DNA from: a virus
Virus record (IMG/VR): IMGVR_UViG_3300047510_000385
Location: 1-36,623 of that record
Direction: 5' to 3' (one strand)
Length of the DNA: 36,623 bases
The position numbers were made by a program, and so were the translations under genes. The notes under the pieces are model-generated. The model had not been told where the DNA came from, did not search any database, and worked only from the letters and a program-made list of their open reading frames with translations. Within the stretch, counting starts at the first letter, position 1, and the number at the start of each line of letters is the position of its first letter. Positions 13,132 to 36,623 of the stretch are shown in pieces.

Positions 13132-15516
13132 ATGGCCAGCACAAGCATCACGATCAGCGCACCACTGACCCTTCTGCCTGAGCAGAGCGCACCAGCTAGC
13201 GAAGGCGCAGCGGAAGGTTACAGCGCACTGGATAGCCGCCAGCGCAGCATCGTGATCGGTGAGACGGTGCCGATTGTGTTCGGCAAGCGTGTAACACGCA
13301 CCACCTACAAGTGGAATCTCGACGTCTCGACAGCGATTGTCTACGAAGTGGGCGGCGTGTTCGTGAGCCCCGGCGCGACGGAGGGACGTTTTCAAAACAA
13401 TGGCACCACCAATGAGTTGGCGGTGAAGCTGCACCTCGTGCTTAGCCAAGGCGATATGCCGCAGCTGCAGGTGCGTGATGTGTTTCAGCGCGCCTGCAGG
13501 GTTGGCACATGGGCGCAAACCTATGACCAGCGTGCTGGCACCTGGACACCTGGCAACTTCATCACGCCAGTGACTGGTTTCGATCTATGGCCCTGCCCTG
13601 CGTTCTGTGGCACCAGCGGCTATTACGACGATCTGACAACACTGAGCTATGAGAACAGCCATGCCGATGGCGACGACACATGGGACCGGCAGGTGCATTG
13701 CTTTGTGCGCCAAGGCATCATCGTTGATCGGCTGATTGAAGGCACAACAGGATCAAGCAACAATGTCTGTGATCTGGCGATCTATCTGATCAATCAGTCC
13801 AGCCGGTTCCCTGATGCGCTGATCGATACGGCCACGTTCACAGCCGCGGCCAACTTCACCGAGACCCAACAGCTCTACTACAACGGCATCGTCGAATCGT
13901 CGCAGAACCTAGAAGACTGGCTGCAATCAAAAAGCCTGTACTTCCTGCTGCGCGTCAGCGACAAGAACGGCAAGAAAGCATTTAGGCCGCGACTGCCCTA
14001 TACCGATGCCTATGCCATCGACACCACTGCTATCGAGTGGGTGTTCGGCTTCACTGAGGATCATGTGCTGCCGGATGGATTCGAGATTGAGTTCATCCCA
14101 TACGCTGATCGTCGGCCGACAGCGATGCAGATGCTGTGGCGGCAGCAGCCCGATGATGACATCGGCATCATCCGCACCACCGTTGTACGGCTGCCTGGCA
14201 CCGGCGTTGATGCACCGATTGAGCAGCATGATTTAAGCGAGTTCTGTACGTCAGAGCTTCACGCCGCAAAGGTGGGCGCTTACCTAGCAGCACGGCGGAT
14301 CTTCATCACGCACACGTTGCGCATCCGTGTGCGGCCAGATGCGTTCAACAGCACGCTTACGCTGGGCGATGTAGTGCGTGTTCGGTTGCGGCGCGAAACG
14401 GATCTCGATGCCGTCACATACCACGACTACTTGTATGAGGTGGAGCGGATCAACAAAAGCCTAAGCGGTGCGGTTGAGCTTGATCTGATTCACTACCCAA
14501 TTGATGCCAACGGCCGCAGCATCGTGGCGCTTTATGTGGCCGGCACCACGATCAACGGCTTTGAATATCCCACCGGTCGCGGTGACTTCACCTGTGATGT
14601 GAACGATCCTGAGGATGAGGATCCGATTCCTGATGAAGGCGGCACACCTGGCGGCTTGCCGGATGATTTCCCGGACGACGTGGAGCCCGATCCTGACAGC
14701 CCAGAATGGCCAGCCAACGTGCCAGATCCCGAGTTTCCTGCTGGCACCGAGAACCCTGACGATGCGGATGCGGAAGGCGGCCGTGATGCTGCGCCTGGTG
14801 GCGGCGGCACTGGTGGGATTGACAATCCAGAGGATCCGATCGACAGCGTGCCAGATAGCGCAGCCGGCGGCGGTGGCACCATCAGGGGCATCCCGACAGA
14901 TCGCCCGCTGCTGCCGGGTGATGAGATCACCTACACACCGCCGTGCTGCCCGGCTGAGGTGAAGATGTATGCCATCGACTATGACACTGGCGTCAGGCTA
15001 CAAGAGGCGCCGGTTGCGGTTGGCACGGCGATTGTGGGCGACTGCGAGGTCAGGTTTGAACTGTTTAACGAATACTTGTTCGACACTGCAACAGCGTTTG
15101 AGTTTACGCATCGCTGCGTGGATCCTGGCTCGCCTGATGGGTATGGCGCTGAGTTGGCAGGCGGGGCGACCCCGGCAATAGGCGGTGAAGATGGCGCGGA
15201 AGCAGCTATTACAGCTGATCCGCCTGCGGCAACTCAGTTTGAAGTCTTCATGCCTTTAGAGGTTTATAGCCAGTATAGGTATATAACGTCAATTACCGGC
15301 CCACTTTTTTATCTAGAGGAGGGAACATTTGTGTTAAGCGGCACTACGTACAATCGCCGTATCCGCCTTCGTTGGACGGATACAAACGGCATCGTTCAAG
15401 ATGTTGTCCCGAGTTTCTTCGGCGTAAGACAAAGCCCTGGAACCGCTGACAATAAACCTTGGGGATGCTCTTTGCAGGTTGCTGCTACAGGTCAACCTTG
15501 GCCTTTTATCAACTAA
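13132..15516 (+). CDS. Tail tip / host-specificity protein (gpJ-like hub)
   Basis: This 794-aa protein is the probable tail hub. Residues 1-480 carry the hub-type pattern: QRSIVIGETVPIVFGKRV near the start, WLQSKSLYFLLRVSDKNGK, GFEIEFIPYADRRPTAMQ, and TLTLGDVVRVRLRRETD near the end of the domain. Residues about 488-590 are an acidic Pro/Gly/Asp-rich linker. Residues about 600-794 form a separate distal part with paired cysteines (PPCCPAEVKMYAIDYDTGV). The last ~100 codons (15225-15516) are visibly more AT-rich than the rest, which suggests exchange of the receptor-facing end. The stop overlaps the next ATG (TAATG). Role in host recognition is inferred from position and architecture. Confidence 0.82.
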   Translation: MASTSITISAPLTLLPEQSAPASEGAAEGYSALDSRQRSIVIGETVPIVFGKRVTRTTYKWNLDVSTAIVYEVGGVFVSPGATEGRFQNNGTTNELAVKLHLVLSQGDMPQLQVRDVFQRACRVGTWAQTYDQRAGTWTPGNFITPVTGFDLWPCPAFCGTSGYYDDLTTLSYENSHADGDDTWDRQVHCFVRQGIIVDRLIEGTTGSSNNVCDLAIYLINQSSRFPDALIDTATFTAAANFTETQQLYYNGIVESSQNLEDWLQSKSLYFLLRVSDKNGKKAFRPRLPYTDAYAIDTTAIEWVFGFTEDHVLPDGFEIEFIPYADRRPTAMQMLWRQQPDDDIGIIRTTVVRLPGTGVDAPIEQHDLSEFCTSELHAAKVGAYLAARRIFITHTLRIRVRPDAFNSTLTLGDVVRVRLRRETDLDAVTYHDYLYEVERINKSLSGAVELDLIHYPIDANGRSIVALYVAGTTINGFEYPTGRGDFTCDVNDPEDEDPIPDEGGTPGGLPDDFPDDVEPDPDSPEWPANVPDPEFPAGTENPDDADAEGGRDAAPGGGGTGGIDNPEDPIDSVPDSAAGGGGTIRGIPTDRPLLPGDEITYTPPCCPAEVKMYAIDYDTGVRLQEAPVAVGTAIVGDCEVRFELFNEYLFDTATAFEFTHRCVDPGSPDGYGAELAGGATPAIGGEDGAEAAITADPPAATQFEVFMPLEVYSQYRYITSITGPLFYLEEGTFVLSGTTYNRRIRLRWTDTNGIVQDVVPSFFGVRQSPGTADNKPWGCSLQVAATGQPWPFIN

Positions 15517-27759: not shown

Positions 27760-28595
27760 CAGTACGTCTCGATCTCGGTGATCTGTTGCTGCGCGCCACT
27801 GGCGCCCGTCATCCAACCCGGCAGGCTGATGGTCTCGATCTGATCGCTGTAGCTCGGCCAGCAATCAGCAGCACGGCAAACGGCCAGCTTGCCTAGATCC
27901 TTCATGGCCTGTTCGTAGCCGCGATCAGTCATCACTTCATCAGCGGCATAAACCGCCACGGCGTATGGCGCGGTCGATTCCACACAGATGAAGATGAACT
28001 GATCCGGGCGCTTGCCGGTGGCCTGCTCAACCCCGTTCAGATACCAAGCTGCCTGCACGTGGTAGCGGTAATCAGCGATGCTGCGCATGAAGCCCCGCGG
28101 GCTGGCGTCTCTGGTGGTCTTGAGATCCACCATGATGCTGCCGTCATCAGTCAGCCAATCCGGCCGGCACTTGCACTCCACCCCATAGGTGGCGTCCGTC
28201 CACATGTGCGTGGTCTCAGCCTTGCCCGGCAGGCCCAGCAGCATTGCTGCACCGGGATGGCGCATGATGCTGCGCCCCATGGCCATCACCACCTCGGCAT
28301 CGTCGGCGGTGATCACGGTCTTGCCAGCAGCAGCAGCTTCGAATGCTGCATAAGACTCCTTGCCTGCCTTGGTGCGGCGATCCATGGCAGGCGCTACGGC
28401 GATCTCTTCATCCCACCTGCTCAGCTCGAGCACGTGCGTGTGAAGCGCAGTGCCAAGGCGCATGGCAGCAGATGGTTCCGGCGTGATGCGGTTCGGATCC
28501 AAGTAGCGCGACCAATAGTGCAGCCCTGATCGCGCGATGAGATCCAGGTGAGACTTTGAGACGGCCGGATGCGCGTGATACGCGGTGTTGTCCAT
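27759..28595 (-). CDS. RecE/RecB-like exonuclease (PD-(D/E)XK)
   Basis: This 278-aa protein is probably the 5'-3' exonuclease partner of RecT. The N-terminus has YHAHPAVSKSHLDLIARSGL and MRLGTALHTHVLE, typical of RecE C-terminal/DUF3799 nucleases. The active site reads CKCRPDWL (Asp146), IMVDLKTTRDA (Asp157, Lys159) and YRYHVQAAWYLNG (Gln181). The ATG is preceded within 40 bases by AGTTGCGG repeats, so transcription is likely controlled there. It is first in a four-gene operon with RecT, an HTH protein and the SSB-like protein. Confidence is high from the ordered nuclease motifs. Confidence 0.9.
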   Translation of the reverse strand: MDNTAYHAHPAVSKSHLDLIARSGLHYWSRYLDPNRITPEPSAAMRLGTALHTHVLELSRWDEEIAVAPAMDRRTKAGKESYAAFEAAAAGKTVITADDAEVVMAMGRSIMRHPGAAMLLGLPGKAETTHMWTDATYGVECKCRPDWLTDDGSIMVDLKTTRDASPRGFMRSIADYRYHVQAAWYLNGVEQATGKRPDQFIFICVESTAPYAVAVYAADEVMTDRGYEQAMKDLGKLAVCRAADCWPSYSDQIETISLPGWMTGASGAQQQITEIETY

Positions 28596-28643
28596 AGTTG
28601 CGGGCAGTTGCGGCCAAATACTAGCAGTTGCGGCGAGATGCGC
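28596..28643. repeat. Helically phased AGTTGCGG repeats in divergent promoter region
   Basis: AGTTGCGG occurs in the same orientation at 28596-28603, 28606-28613 and 28626-28633, with a weaker AGATGCGC at 28636-28643. Starts are 10, 20 and 10 bases apart, so all copies face the same side of the helix. They fill the 90-base gap between the divergent exonuclease and helicase-methyltransferase genes. This looks like an operator for cooperative binding that could control both operons. Confidence 0.6.
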
Positions 28644-28685
28644 TACTGTGCCGAGCGCTGGGACACCCAGCCCGATCCTCCGCCT

Positions 28686-30953
28686 ATGACCTACTCAGAC
28701 TTTCTGGCTTCAAAGTCCACAGCCTGCCCACCAGCAGGATTTGATCCGGCATCCTTCACCGCGCCGCTGTTCCCCTTTCAGCGGGACATCGTGACCATGG
28801 CTTGCCGTGTTGGCAGGTTCTGCATCTGGGCTGACTGCGGCATGGGCAAAACCGCCATGCAGCTCGAATGGGCATCACAGGTCTGCCAACACACCAAAGG
28901 CAACGTGCTGGTGCTGGCACCGCTTGCCGTCGCACATCAGACCGTGCGCGAGGGCAACAAGTTCGGCATCCCATGCTCGTTCGCTGCCACGCAAGCTGAG
29001 GTCAAGCCCGGCATCACGATCACCAACTACGAGAAGCTGAGCCACTTCGATCCATCCGCCTTCGATGGCGTGGTGCTCGATGAGAGCAGCATCCTCAAGG
29101 CATACACCGGCAAGATCCGCAATCAGATCATCGAGTCCTTCGCGCAGACCTCATTCCGTCTGGCTTGCTCAGCCACACCAGCACCGAACGACCACATGGA
29201 GCTGGGCAACCATGCCGAGTTCATCGGCGTGATGACCCGCACCGAAATGCTGGCCATGTTCTTCGTGCATGACGGCGGCGACACCGCTAAGTGGCGGCTC
29301 AAGGGTCACGCACAATCCAAGTTCTGGGAGTGGGTCTGCAGTTGGGCGGTCACCATCCGCAAGCCGTCAGACCTTGGCTACGACGACGGCAGCTTCATCC
29401 TGCCGGCGTTGCAGATCAGTGACTGCACCGTTGAGACGCCACGTGATGCCGCAACTGATGATGCTGGCCAAATGGCGCTGTTCGCCATGGAGGCCCGCAC
29501 GCTGAGCGATCAGCGGCAGGTGCGCAAGGCATCGCTCGATCTGCGCGTTGCAGCAGCAGCCACCCTGGCCAACAACAGCACCGAACAATGGTTGATCTGG
29601 TGTGACCTGAACGATGAATCCAAGGCGCTCACTGCTGCCATCCATGGCGCAGTCGAGGTCAGTGGTTCCGATTCAGATGATCACAAGCAGCAAGCCGCCA
29701 TCGACTTCCAAGATGGCAACATCCGCGTGCTGGTCAGCAAGCCGAGCATCTTTGGCTTTGGCTTGAACTTCCAGGGCTGCCACAACGTTGCCTTCGTTGG
29801 TCTGTCCCACAGCTACGAGGCGTTCTACCAAGCTATCCGCCGCTGCTGGCGCTTCGGGCAACAGCAACCCGTCAACGCTCACATCATCTACGACGTGGCA
29901 GAAGGTCGCGTGATCGACAACATCCGTCGCAAAGAAGCGGACAGCATCGCCATGGCCGAATCAATGGTCACCATCATGAAGCAATCCACAATGGAACAAC
30001 TCAAGAAGATTCAGCGCCAGGTCGCTCCACACATCACTGAGCACAAGACCGGCGACAGCTGGGATCTGTACATGGGCGACTGCGTTGAGAGCATCCGCCA
30101 GCTGGACTCTGATTCGATCCACTACAGCATTTTCAGCCCGCCGTTCGCGTCGCTCTACACCTACTCCAACAGCGACCGCGATATGGGCAACAGCCGCACC
30201 GAGCAGGAGTTTTTCGATCACTTTGCATTCCTCGCCAGCGAGCTGCACCGCGTGATGATGCCCGGCCGGCTGATCAGCTTCCATTGCATGAATCTGCCCA
30301 GCAGCAAAGAACGCGATGGCTTCATCGGCGTGAAAGACTTCCGCGGTGACATGCTGCGCATTTTCCAGGCTGCTGGTTTCGTGTTCCATAGCGAGGTGTG
30401 CATCTGGAAGGATCCCGTCACCGCAATGCAGCGCACCAAGGCAATCGGTCTGCTGCACAAACAAGTGCGCAAGGATTCAGCACTCAGCCGCCAAGGCATC
30501 CCTGACTACCTGGTGACCGTGCGCAAGCTGGGCGACAACACGGAGCCAGTGGCCGGCCCGTTCACTGAGTTTGCTGGTGAGAACCCACCAGCCAAGACCG
30601 GTGATGCGATCAAAGACTCGATCAACATCTGGCAGCGCTACGCCAGCCCCGTATGGATGGACATCAATCCATCAGACACGCTGCAATATCGCAGCGCTCG
30701 CGCCAATGAGGATGAGCGCCACATCTGCCCGCTGCAGCTAGAGGTGATACGCCGCGGCCTGCAGTTGTGGAGCAATCCTGGCGACGTGGTGCTGTCGCCG
30801 TTTGCCGGCATCGGCAGCGAGGGTTACGTCAGCCTTGAGATGGATCGCCGCTTCGTTGGCTTTGAACTGAAGCCCAGCTACTTCAACTGCGCTGTCAAGA
30901 ATCTGACCAATGCACAAGCGGCAAAGCAGGCGGAGCTGCTGCCATGCAGCTGA
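28686..30953 (+). CDS. SNF2-like helicase fused to DNA methyltransferase
   Basis: From the ATG at 28686 this 755-aa protein joins two enzymes. Residues 25-420 are a superfamily 2 ATPase: FPFQRDIVTMA, Walker A ADCGMGKT (49-56), LDESS (131-135), CSATPAP (161-167), and YQAIRRCWRFGQ (381-392) as motif VI. Residues 455-745 are a DNA methyltransferase with motif IV SPPF (484-487) and, later, motif I SPFAGIGSEG (704-713), the beta-class order; SPPF suits N4-cytosine or N6-adenine methylation. The frame is open further upstream to 28569, but that part reads poorly and contains the operator. Both halves have intact motifs, so both may be active. The stop overlaps the next helicase. Confidence 0.9.
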   Translation: MTYSDFLASKSTACPPAGFDPASFTAPLFPFQRDIVTMACRVGRFCIWADCGMGKTAMQLEWASQVCQHTKGNVLVLAPLAVAHQTVREGNKFGIPCSFAATQAEVKPGITITNYEKLSHFDPSAFDGVVLDESSILKAYTGKIRNQIIESFAQTSFRLACSATPAPNDHMELGNHAEFIGVMTRTEMLAMFFVHDGGDTAKWRLKGHAQSKFWEWVCSWAVTIRKPSDLGYDDGSFILPALQISDCTVETPRDAATDDAGQMALFAMEARTLSDQRQVRKASLDLRVAAAATLANNSTEQWLIWCDLNDESKALTAAIHGAVEVSGSDSDDHKQQAAIDFQDGNIRVLVSKPSIFGFGLNFQGCHNVAFVGLSHSYEAFYQAIRRCWRFGQQQPVNAHIIYDVAEGRVIDNIRRKEADSIAMAESMVTIMKQSTMEQLKKIQRQVAPHITEHKTGDSWDLYMGDCVESIRQLDSDSIHYSIFSPPFASLYTYSNSDRDMGNSRTEQEFFDHFAFLASELHRVMMPGRLISFHCMNLPSSKERDGFIGVKDFRGDMLRIFQAAGFVFHSEVCIWKDPVTAMQRTKAIGLLHKQVRKDSALSRQGIPDYLVTVRKLGDNTEPVAGPFTEFAGENPPAKTGDAIKDSINIWQRYASPVWMDINPSDTLQYRSARANEDERHICPLQLEVIRRGLQLWSNPGDVVLSPFAGIGSEGYVSLEMDRRFVGFELKPSYFNCAVKNLTNAQAAKQAELLPCS

Positions 30954-32302: not shown

Positions 32303-32639
32303 GACCACCCTTCAACAGCAAATCCGCCTAGCCGTTGGCACGCGATCTGATCTGAGATTGTTCCGCAATCAGGTCGGATCGCTCCCCGATCCACGCACCG
32401 GCCGTCTCGTCACCTTCGGCCTCGCCAAGGGCTCCGCTGACCTCATCGGCTGGCGCACCGTCACGGTCACCCCCGAGATGGTGGGCCAGCGCATCGCCGT
32501 GTTTACCAGCATCGAAATCAAGCTGCCTAATGGTCGCGTCAGACCCGAGCAACACGCCTGGCAGCGCACCGTATCGGCCGCCGGTGGCATCGCAGGCATC
32601 GCCCGCTCAGTGCAAGACGCAAACGAATTACTGAGATAA
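32289..32639 (+). CDS. VRR-NUC domain nuclease
   Basis: From the GTG at 32289 this 116-aa protein is a minimal VRR-NUC enzyme: RLFRNQVGSL, GLAKGSADLIGW with Asp51, SIEIKLPNG with Glu76 and Lys78, and RPEQHAWQRTVSAAGG. Single-domain VRR-NUC proteins in phages are thought to cut branched structures such as Holliday junctions or flaps. Overlap with the helicase gene suggests the two act together. A TTG at 32259 would extend it, but the added residues do not look conserved. The primase gene follows after about 50 bases. Confidence 0.9.
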   Translation: MANAETTLQQQIRLAVGTRSDLRLFRNQVGSLPDPRTGRLVTFGLAKGSADLIGWRTVTVTPEMVGQRIAVFTSIEIKLPNGRVRPEQHAWQRTVSAAGGIAGIARSVQDANELLR

Positions 32640-32642
32640 CCT

Positions 32643-32660
32643 CCCAACCGTCCAAACCTT
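32643..32660 (-). repeat. Iteron copy upstream of the primase gene
   Basis: The minus strand reads GTTTGGACGG then TTGGG here (32643-32657). It closely matches the block at 34955-34971 downstream of the primase (GGTTAGACGGTTGGG), in the opposite orientation. It sits about 35 bases before the primase start and may let the initiator control its own gene. Confidence 0.55.
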
Positions 32661-32692
32661 CTGGCAAGATCTGGCGGCATTGCATCTGTCGG

Positions 32693-34795
32693 TTGTCATC
32701 ACTACTCGATCAGCTCTCACGCCTCCCAGATGGCTGGGGCTATGTCGCCGTAGGCCAAGGCAAGCGTCCCTATCAGCCCGGCTGGCAGAAGAACCCTCTC
32801 ACCAAGCAGCAGCTCACCGCCGAGATCACTGCAGGCCGTGCCGTCGCCATCGGCGTGATCGCCGGGCCGCAGTCCGGTGGTCTCCTCTTCGTCGATCATG
32901 ACGGCATCTCAGCCGGTGAGATCCTCGACAAGCTCGGTGTACCGCTTCGCGACCTGCCGAAGTCCTGGGCAGTCACATCAGGCCGCAACGGCCGCCTGCA
33001 GATCATCTACCGCGTCCCCGAGCAGTTCTGGTCGGACATCTCAACCCGGAAGTTCAAGACCGGGAAATTTGATGAGGAGGGCAAGCCCGAACAGCTCGAG
33101 CTCCGATGGTCCGGTTGCCAGTCCGTCGTCGCAGGTGCTCATCCCATCACCGGCGCCTACCGCTGGCTGAAGGGCCGCGAACCGGGCCGCCTACCGCTGG
33201 CTGAGGCACCCCTTGCGCTGATCGAGCAGATGCTGCCCCAGCAGCCGCCAGAGCCGCAGCCGATCCTGCCGCCTCCTCCACCACGGCAAACGGATCGCAC
33301 CGATGAAGACTGGGCGCGCATCTGGCTCGATGCTCTCAGCCCCTCGCGCGCTGAGGACTACGACTACTGGATCGAAGTCGGGCAGTGCCTGCAGAGCGTC
33401 GGCGATCACATGCTTGCCGACTGGGATGCCTGGTCTCGGCAATCCGCCAAATGGGAGGCAGGCGCCTGCGACTACCACTGGCGCACCTTCTCCCCTGACG
33501 GCAAGCGCGACATCCGCCACCTCTGCAACCTCGCCAAGGAGGACGGCTGGCAACCGAAGCAACGCCAGCTGCCGCCAGTGCCCACCACCAAGGCCGCACC
33601 GCCTGCAAGGCAGCAGCAGCAACCCCAGCAGGCCGCTCCGATCGTGGACAAGCCCCACAAGCTCGAGGCCAAGGAGCTTCTCAACATGCTCCGCGTGCCA
33701 GACAAGAACAAGCTGCCGCGCTTTCGCTACAACGTCTTCACGCAGCAGATCGAGATCTACGGCAACGTCGCAGAAGGTGCCGAACGCTTTTACCTTCAGC
33801 TCTCAGAAGAGGGTTACAAAGTATCGAAGGAAATGGCACTGGACTGCCTCGTTCAGGTAGCCCGCGAAAACCCATACGATCCCGTCAAGCTCTACCTCGA
33901 GCACGTCGCCGCACAGGTGCAACCGACCTACATCGACCGGCTCGCATCAACCTACCTGCGGCCGATTGATGCCGATCTGAATGAGCCAACCCTTTACGAT
34001 GCGATGATCAAGAAGACGCTGATCGGTGCAGTTCGGCGCATCTTTGAACCCGGATGCAAGCACGATTACGCCTGCGTCCTGATGGGTGATCAAGGCGCTC
34101 GAAAGTCATCCTTCTGGGCCGCCTTGGGTGGTCCGTTCTTCTCTGATGCACTGCGTGACATCAGCTCAAAAGATGACCTGATGGTGCTGCACCGCAGCTG
34201 GCTGATGGAGTGGGCCGAGCTCGATCACATCACCAACAAGAAGCACGCAGGGCAGGTGAAGGCTTTCCTTTCGCAGTCCACCGACATGTTCCGCGTGCCC
34301 TACGGCAAGGCCACAGAGGCCTTCCCGCGCCGCTGCATCATCGTGGGCTCCACCAACCGCGACAGCGGCTTTTTGGTCGATGAGACCGGCAACAGGCGCT
34401 TCTGGGTGATCCCGGTCACCTGCACACTCGCCAAGCCGATCGACGTGCCGAACCTCCTGCTCGAGCGGGACGCCATCTGGAGCGCCGCTGTGGCCGCTTA
34501 CAAAGCCGGCGAGGGCAATGACCTCAAGGCTGAGCAGCACGCAGCCGTGGAGGCCGAGAACGAGACCTATCTGGTCAGCAACCCGTGGCTCAACGCCGTG
34601 GAGCAATACCTGGCACGTCGGCCATCCGTCGATCAGCTCACCTCGGAGGAGATCCTGCTGCAGGCCATCCAGAAGCCGCTGGAGCGCCAGACCCGCGCAG
34701 ACCAGATGCAGGTGGCCTCGATTCTCAAGGATCTCGGATGGGTCAAGAAACGAGAGCCGAAAGGCCGCCGCAGGTGGTTCTACACACTGCCTTAG
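32693..34795 (+). CDS. Primase-polymerase / VapE-type replication initiator ATPase
   Basis: This 700-aa protein probably starts replication. Residues about 10-180 resemble a primase-polymerase domain, with LLFVDHDG (64-71) as the metal site and GRNGRLQIIYRVP. Residues about 205-290 match a PriCT-like linker (EDYDYWIEVGQCLQSVGDHM). A Gln/Pro-rich hinge follows (300-325). Residues about 420-620 are a VapE/SF3-like ATPase: MGDQGARKSSFW (Walker A, 464-475), WLMEWAELDH and CIIVGSTNRDSGFL, ending NRRFWVIPV. The Walker loop reads GARKSS where GxGKS is usual. The only plausible start is TTG at 32693. Iterons flank the gene on both sides. Confidence 0.88.
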   Translation: MSSLLDQLSRLPDGWGYVAVGQGKRPYQPGWQKNPLTKQQLTAEITAGRAVAIGVIAGPQSGGLLFVDHDGISAGEILDKLGVPLRDLPKSWAVTSGRNGRLQIIYRVPEQFWSDISTRKFKTGKFDEEGKPEQLELRWSGCQSVVAGAHPITGAYRWLKGREPGRLPLAEAPLALIEQMLPQQPPEPQPILPPPPPRQTDRTDEDWARIWLDALSPSRAEDYDYWIEVGQCLQSVGDHMLADWDAWSRQSAKWEAGACDYHWRTFSPDGKRDIRHLCNLAKEDGWQPKQRQLPPVPTTKAAPPARQQQQPQQAAPIVDKPHKLEAKELLNMLRVPDKNKLPRFRYNVFTQQIEIYGNVAEGAERFYLQLSEEGYKVSKEMALDCLVQVARENPYDPVKLYLEHVAAQVQPTYIDRLASTYLRPIDADLNEPTLYDAMIKKTLIGAVRRIFEPGCKHDYACVLMGDQGARKSSFWAALGGPFFSDALRDISSKDDLMVLHRSWLMEWAELDHITNKKHAGQVKAFLSQSTDMFRVPYGKATEAFPRRCIIVGSTNRDSGFLVDETGNRRFWVIPVTCTLAKPIDVPNLLLERDAIWSAAVAAYKAGEGNDLKAEQHAAVEAENETYLVSNPWLNAVEQYLARRPSVDQLTSEEILLQAIQKPLERQTRADQMQVASILKDLGWVKKREPKGRRRWFYTLP

Positions 34796-35050
34796 GGCAG
34801 GTTGGACGGGTCAGACGGCGAAACCCATTGCAAACACTAGATTTTGTGCTCGTCCAACCCGTCTGACGTCCGACTTCGCCTATAGGAGTTACCCGCGTGT
34901 CCCTGCCCTCCCCCTTACCTACCTATTTATTTATACTCTTTTAGAGAGGTTAGGAGGTTAGACGGTTGGGAAAATCCTTGTGCTGCAGTGGGTCTCCCGT
35001 CCTAACGGGGTAAATTGAGGTTGGACGGGCTGAAAACAGGCGCAAGGCGC
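34796..35050. other. Candidate replication origin: iterons around an AT-rich stretch
   Basis: Copies of a nonamer close to GTYRGACGG occur at 34801-34809 and 34810-34818 (+, adjacent), 34859-34867, 34850-34858 and 34866-34874 (minus), 34957-34965 (+) and 35020-35028 (+). Looser copies are at 34949-34957 and, with one extra base, 34997-35006 (minus). Between them lies an AT-rich tract, about 34918-34945 (CTATTTATTTATACTCTTTT). Iterons, AT-rich unwinding tract and an adjacent initiator gene are the standard parts of an iteron origin. No gene was found here. Confidence 0.62.
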
Positions 35051-35071
35051 TGGAAGTGCTACGGTCACACC

Positions 35072-35147
35072 GAGTTCACCGCTCCGGGGAGCCCCTGCTG
35101 CTGACGCGGTAGGGGCTTTCTGCTGTAGCCTCGTGGCCGGTGAACTC
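35072..35147 (+). ncRNA. Nested hairpin element, terminator-like or small RNA
   Basis: A perfect ten-base inverted repeat (GAGTTCACCG at 35072-35081, CGGTGAACTC at 35138-35147) encloses an inner stem (AGCCCCT at 35090-35096, AGGGGCT at 35111-35117) followed by TTTC. The inner hairpin could terminate transcription from the replication operon. The outer stem ends just before the nuclease gene and could hide its start. The whole 76-base element could equally be a structured small RNA. Confidence 0.4.
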
Positions 35148-35155
35148 AAGCAACC

Positions 35156-35740
35156 ATGCACCTAGCAGCAGCCGGCGCTGAAGCGCTACTGGCCGAACGC
35201 ACGCTCACAGAGCTGTCGTCTCACTACCTCATCACCGAGCAGGTGATCGGAACACACCCCACAGGCAAGCGCCTGCGCATCGACGCAATCCTTCGGCCGC
35301 TTGATCCTTCGCCTTGGTCCCGTGCAGACATTGCGCTCGGCATTGAGTTCAAGGCGCCCACCGATCGGGATCAAGGTCGTCGCGATCGAAAGGAGAACGC
35401 CAAGATCATCAGCCAGTGCATCGACTACTCGCTCGTTGAGTGGGAGGGCTTCGGCAATGTGCCGATCTTCTTCTGCCCCGGCTTTGCAGAGATCAGAAAC
35501 CATGTAGACCAGTTCGATCCGCTTGGTCTTGATGAACAGGACTACCGGACCGGCTTCACCAACGGGATCGGTTTTCTGATGGCCGCCGTGATGGGGCAGA
35601 ACAACGTCGGCGAGATGGTGCACTCCGATCACCTCGGCTGGGCATTTCTCATCAACGGCAGCCACCGCATCTGGTCGCAGCGCTACGGCATCGGCGAAGG
35701 CAAGCGCAACAAGCTGATCAGGCAGGTCGGCTCCCGCTAG
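35156..35740 (+). CDS. Putative PD-(D/E)XK nuclease
   Basis: This 194-aa protein contains a nuclease-like core: KRLRIDAILRP with Asp43, then DIALGIEFKAPTDRDQGR with Glu64 and Lys66, then KIISQCIDYSLVEW with Gln87, the spacing expected for PD-(D/E)XK folds. It begins with a helix (HLAAAGAEALLAERTLTELS). The C-terminal part (TGFTNGIGFLMAAVMGQNNV; GWAFLINGSHRIW) is beta-rich and unfamiliar. It might act in recombination, host DNA breakdown or restriction. It stands after the candidate origin, apart from the main replication genes. The nuclease fold is inferred from motif spacing only. Confidence 0.7.
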   Translation: MHLAAAGAEALLAERTLTELSSHYLITEQVIGTHPTGKRLRIDAILRPLDPSPWSRADIALGIEFKAPTDRDQGRRDRKENAKIISQCIDYSLVEWEGFGNVPIFFCPGFAEIRNHVDQFDPLGLDEQDYRTGFTNGIGFLMAAVMGQNNVGEMVHSDHLGWAFLINGSHRIWSQRYGIGEGKRNKLIRQVGSR

Positions 35741-36471: not shown

Positions 36472-36623
36472 TCAGCGAATTGATTTCATTCGCATCGCAT
36501 CGCACCAGCTGGCACGGCAAGGCGTCACGTCATCGCGTCGCTTCAATCGTCTGGCGCCCCCGCTCCCCCCGTCCGGTTGACCGCTTGCCGTCGTTGCGCG
36601 CGACAAAATGGGTCCTCCCCCGC
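36472..36623. other. Gene-free right end
   Basis: No ORF with support is seen in the last 152 bases. The stretch has short repeats (CGCATCGCATCGCA near 36501-36514), C-rich tracts (CCCCCGCTCCCCCC near 36555) and GTTGCGCGCGAC near 36593. If the window is the linear genome or was opened near cos, this end plus 1-126 would form the cos region. Confidence 0.35.

Follow-up and report, generated by a model that had tools for sequence, protein, structure and literature searches.

The window, i.e. the whole stretch of DNA analyzed here, comprises 36,623 nucleotides of the viral record IMGVR_UViG_3300047510_000385. At positions 32693-34795 (plus strand) it contains an initiator gene whose 700-aa product consists, according to domain matches and structure models, of a PrimPol domain (aa 14-173), a PriCT-2 domain (aa 210-281), a VapE SF3 helicase (aa 428-626) and a C-terminal winged helix. 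In the PDB, 7pds (PriRep1 with dsDNA) ranks first for this protein in both the sequence and the fold comparison. The predicted winged helix (aa 631-698, encoded at 34583-34786, plus strand) is proposed to read the repeats that follow the gene, based on the models, on an association between repeat word and C-terminus, and on weak winged-helix matches. In the structure predicted for this region, helices and strands follow one another as in a winged helix. Foldseek gave weak matches throughout, none with an E-value of 0.001 or better, and many of them are winged-helix regulators (PerR, Fur, MarR-type). Further downstream, a noncoding inverted repeat (GAGTTCACCG...CGGTGAACTC, 35068-35150), also present in the related loci L010 and L015 and without a match in Rfam, precedes a 194-aa ORF (35156-35740). 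This ORF has no Pfam or PHROG match, and by eye it contains D...EFK, a pattern known from some nucleases. Upstream, a single ORF (28569-30953) combines helicase and N6/N4 DNA methylase domains, which are encoded by separate genes in the Synechococcus phage S-LBS1.

A preliminary description had placed a cluster of the nonamer GTYRGACGG at 34796-35050, and the copies are indeed found there, five exact ones within 260 bp. The window contains only six exact copies altogether; hence, the motif is not common throughout the genome. Five of them lie inside 34801-35028, at 34801(+), 34810(+), 34859(-), 34957(+) and 35020(+), accompanied by near copies at 34850(-) and 34866(-), and the sole exact copy elsewhere is at 15371. 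With one mismatch allowed, 32 copies compare with 26.8 expected window-wide, which is no enrichment; the signal is therefore the cluster, not the total count. In 300 genomes simulated with an order-1 Markov model, the mean total was 0.92, the largest cluster of exact copies was 1, and none (0/300) had two exact copies inside 260 bp. Likewise, seven words with at most two mismatches to GGTTGGACG occur in 34796-35050 as against 0.7 per 255 bp elsewhere, and the maximum in any other 255-bp segment tested is three. A motif-free repeat score does not rank the array region first genome-wide (6; maximum elsewhere 8), while it exceeds that of shuffles of the same region (p = 0.005).

The repeat unit is better described as an 8/9-bp word, GGTYRGAC(G), than as the nonamer. 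Read in this way, the array begins directly past the stop codon with two tandem iterons (34800-34818, plus strand), followed by about three units on the other strand (34851-34875). Beyond these lie three tandem 8-bp units, GGTTAGGA, GGTTAGAC and GGTTGGGA (34948-34971, plus strand), and single iterons GTTAGGACG (34998-35006, minus strand) and GGTTGGACG (35019-35027, plus strand); the triplet and GTTAGGACG are the units added by the new reading. The opposed sets sit either side of an AT-rich tract (34914-34943), which had also been noticed beforehand and is real: with 23% GC it is the window's minimum over 30 bp, though over 50 bp only joint second, and it is proposed as the melting site. Between the first set and this tract are a conserved core element, GACTTCGCCTATAGGAGTTACC (34872-34893), which occurs in both orientations among relatives, and an adjoining C-rich tract (34900-34914, plus strand).

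This arrangement is similar to the pri-rep-ori module of SaPI/PICI elements, in which a Rep helicase is combined with a primase and the initiator gene is immediately followed by the origin, with two iteron sets around an AT-rich region (PMC6092414, PMC7581432). SaPI Rep uses its C-terminal domain to recognize iterons that immediately follow rep (PMC7581432). The window shares the Rep-type helicase and primase (PrimPol and VapE domains, PriRep1 match; self-loading is putative), a distance of 5 bp from the stop codon to the first iteron, and the two sets flanking an AT-rich region. In contrast to SaPI/PICI elements, the proposed replicon is part of a full-size cos phage that carries virion genes of its own, and the replicon has lineage-specific 8/9-bp words and a conserved non-repeat core found in both orientations. 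Whereas a PICI as a whole is a helper-packaged satellite with an incomplete set of virion genes, the window possesses terminase, portal, capsid and tail genes, in accordance with the earlier notion of a satellite-style replicon in a full-size phage. A full-size phage with a comparable layout is the Streptococcus phage Sfi21, whose record annotates 302 bp of noncoding DNA, located 3' of a putative primase, as origin of replication; by eye, and unscored, an AGTAAC-type word is repeated there around a long AT tract. Sfi21 differs in repeat word, in host, and in the arrangement of its helicase and primase genes. Hence, the layout implied to be unusual is present, but other VapE phages share it, and the proposed origin in the window is a further case of an already known type, represented by the SaPI/PICI origins and the annotated origin of phage Sfi21.

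How widespread such arrays are was assessed by scoring the 3' regions of 20 VapE-type genes. These regions were chosen by hand from hit lists for diversity and are thus not a random sample. In 14 of them, the best word scores higher than any of 200 shuffles (p = 0.005), namely in the window, in S-LBS1 and in 12 other elements – 11 full-size phages and one satellite (Javan429) – each of which has an array with its own word. The array of Haddon is weak (p = 0.02), and none was detected in the five scored regions of S-2L, BK745P1, Leuconostoc phage phiLNTR3, Murka and a Nostoc plasmid; in phiLNTR3, Murka and Haddon, another gene follows the VapE gene directly. The own-word arrays in 11 full-size VapE phages run counter to a claim in the literature that only PICIs have this layout. 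Furthermore, a blind search with a 20-base GGGC-word iteron pattern gave 28 matches in 24 viral stretches, and in 18 of these stretches (19 of the matches) the array lies at most 200 bp 3' of a VapE gene. A 16-base GGCA-word pattern was unspecific in viral contigs, 73 of its 80 matches lying in stretches without a VapE gene. The 18-base word of the window occurs in four contigs; one of them, L178, has a different repeat, GTTGGACG (1019-1070 of that contig), adjoining a gene that the profile used does not classify as VapE-like. A DNA pattern alone also led to distant VapE phages with the word GGTTRGGCA (L179-L202), which extend the material for a recognition code. A recurring order of VapE gene, noncoding gap, VRR-NUC or endonuclease, and helicase was observed in L085, L087, L089, L090, L091 and L098, which are phages of unrelated hosts.

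For a closer comparison, 80 relatives were fetched from IMG/VR. In those examined, the array is conserved directly 3' of the primase gene: in about 40, inspection of the 3' sequence by eye reveals tandem repeats past the stop codon, together with one AT-rich tract and another rich in C or G, and the core word GT[ACT][AG]G exceeds the locus's own rate in 80/80, with a modest excess in some (5 versus 3 to 4 expected). The closest cultured relative found is S-LBS1, whose initiator is 67% identical over 78% of the query. Like the window, it has iterons 3' of the initiator gene; unlike the window, its word is GGTTGGGCA, its core is inverted and no upstream repeat pair was detected. The passages of the S-LBS1 paper that were consulted mention no origin. 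The S-LBS1 record (L084) ends with 124 bases (34518-34641) that duplicate its positions 34268-34391, possibly an assembly artefact.

The repeat word differs by lineage. Loci with REx.G(R/K)RRW wings mostly have a GGAC word, those with RRQ..G.QKW wings a GGCA word, and the remaining wings go with GGGC, GGAA or mixed words; the words were assigned by simple regular expressions, and clade A and the divergent loci include some mixed cases. This covariation of word and C-terminal domain among relatives is the strongest indirect support for binding of the repeats by the initiator. It also bears on the idea that a stem-loop downstream of the gene serves as the assembly site of the initiator, with the iterons being secondary. 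Such a model has a precedent in plasmid pRN1, whose ORF904 has the same PrimPol-SF3-winged-helix architecture and whose origin, just downstream of the gene, is a 100-bp stem-loop rather than an iteron array (PMC4234260); in the window, opposed iterons could pair. However, the fact that lineage-specific words go with the winged helix points to a reading of sequence, and we regard the structure-based origin as very unlikely. A search of Rfam gave no match within the window.

The initiator itself is a mosaic. Residues 1-630 are nearest to clade B (L005-L027, GGCA word), but residues 661-700 to clade A (L036-L080, GGAC word). In the tree of the C-terminus, clade A and the window group (the window, L001, L003 and L004) are joined at a support of 99/99. 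AU tests reject a grouping with clade B for the C-terminus (p = 0.019) and with clade A for the body (p = 0.0004); for the body, a single clade of the window group is rejected as well (p = 0.016), because L004 does not branch with the window, L001 and L003. Since the groups were named after the alignment had been seen, all these p-values err to some extent on the generous side. The rejection of a single clade for the body suggests two swaps. The pattern looks like natural swaps of winged helix and origin, probably two.

The orientation of the core follows the same division. When the non-iteron core of the window (34872-34947) was aligned to 37 loci, it lay on the window's strand in all 15 loci with a GGAC word and was inverted in 20 of the 22 loci with other words. 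The exceptions are L017, with nearly equal scores (33 versus 31), and the GGGC-word locus L034 (38 versus 28); calls for L031, L032, L038, L049 and L082 rest on weak scores, and counts of orientation change left out L017, L031, L032 and L082. Core orientation thus tracks the repeat word in 35/37 loci, which represent only three independent contrasts of wing type against core orientation, too few for significance.

A further copy of the repeat had been described 5' of the gene at 32643-32657. It is present, but it is not a single copy: it is a tandem pair at 32641-32657 (minus strand), a proposed autoregulatory operator. By eye in the printed sequences, a same-word pair is found in the window, L001, L003, L004 and most clade B loci, on the other strand in L023; the regular expression had missed several pairs including the window's own, for which the printed sequence was used. 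No pair was found in L014, L015, clade A, S-LBS1 and several divergent loci. Where present, the pair shares the repeat word of the origin, and the window group has a pair with the GGAC word despite its clade B-like gene body, as expected if the pair must match the C-terminus. Origin word, core orientation and upstream pair all go with the C-terminus of the initiator. On balance we favor the view, with some reservation, that the winged-helix C-terminus and the iteron origin form a swappable specificity cassette, which would have moved at least two times onto a different primase-helicase body, with the upstream operator coming to match the incoming word and the core carried in either orientation.

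A pair of the same word upstream of the gene is also what one would expect if the repeats served purely as operators for transcription control, to which the initiator or a different regulator binds, with the origin elsewhere. Yet the main array follows the gene and surrounds the AT minimum in two opposed sets, a position also occupied by the origins of Sfi21 and the PICIs. Moreover, no sigma-70-like promoter was found in 32500-35300, an observation of limited value in cyanobacteria. We consider a purely regulatory role of the repeats improbable.

The right end of the genome has to be considered too, because the array lies about 1.8 kb from it. Fourteen related contigs share a GGGTCC motif and terminate at precisely 39 bases from its start, 870-3337 bp past the primase stop; two contigs, L027 and L031, run into Illumina adapter at the same end point, and further contigs read through it to the terminase side. 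The shared end point and the adapter run-ins indicate a cos end near 36610-36623. The window is hence a nearly complete linear genome without roughly the last 25 bases at the cos end. The iteron repeats as the cos site itself were rejected, since the 14 contigs share one end point further right. Terminases of the gpA family use repeated binding sites near cos, as in phage lambda, and the repeats might accordingly be cosB-like packaging sites bound by the terminase. But the contig ends place the cut elsewhere, at a variable distance from the primase, the repeat word tracks the C-terminus of the initiator, and similar arrays are found 3' of VapE genes in unrelated phages. Taken together, this makes a role in packaging extremely unlikely.

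Layout, conservation, protein domains, the association between word and C-terminus, and the mosaic pattern are the basis of the model we propose, namely that 34796-35050 is most probably (at roughly 0.86) the replication origin of the phage, with iterons recognized by the winged helix at the C-terminus of the PrimPol-VapE protein. According to this model, opposed 8/9-bp iteron sets (34800-34875 and 34948-35027) flank the AT-rich tract and the conserved non-repeat core. The initiator, encoded just upstream, would bind the iterons via its winged helix, assemble helicase rings on the flanking arrays and melt the AT-rich tract, whereupon its N-terminal PrimPol domain would prime synthesis; the pair at 32641-32657 probably lets the initiator limit its own expression. 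GC skew, proposed earlier as a check, supports an origin at the array weakly: in S-LBS1 the cumulative minimum (34063) is near the array, but in the window it falls about 1.5-1.8 kb away, where the two ends of the record meet (the cos junction).

Because the closest cultured phage infects Synechococcus and one relative was found in a Cyanobium bin, we infer that the hosts are cyanobacteria. The locus thus provides a concrete candidate origin for an uncultured cyanophage group, and the natural initiator chimeras represent a set for working out the code of recognition between protein and iteron.
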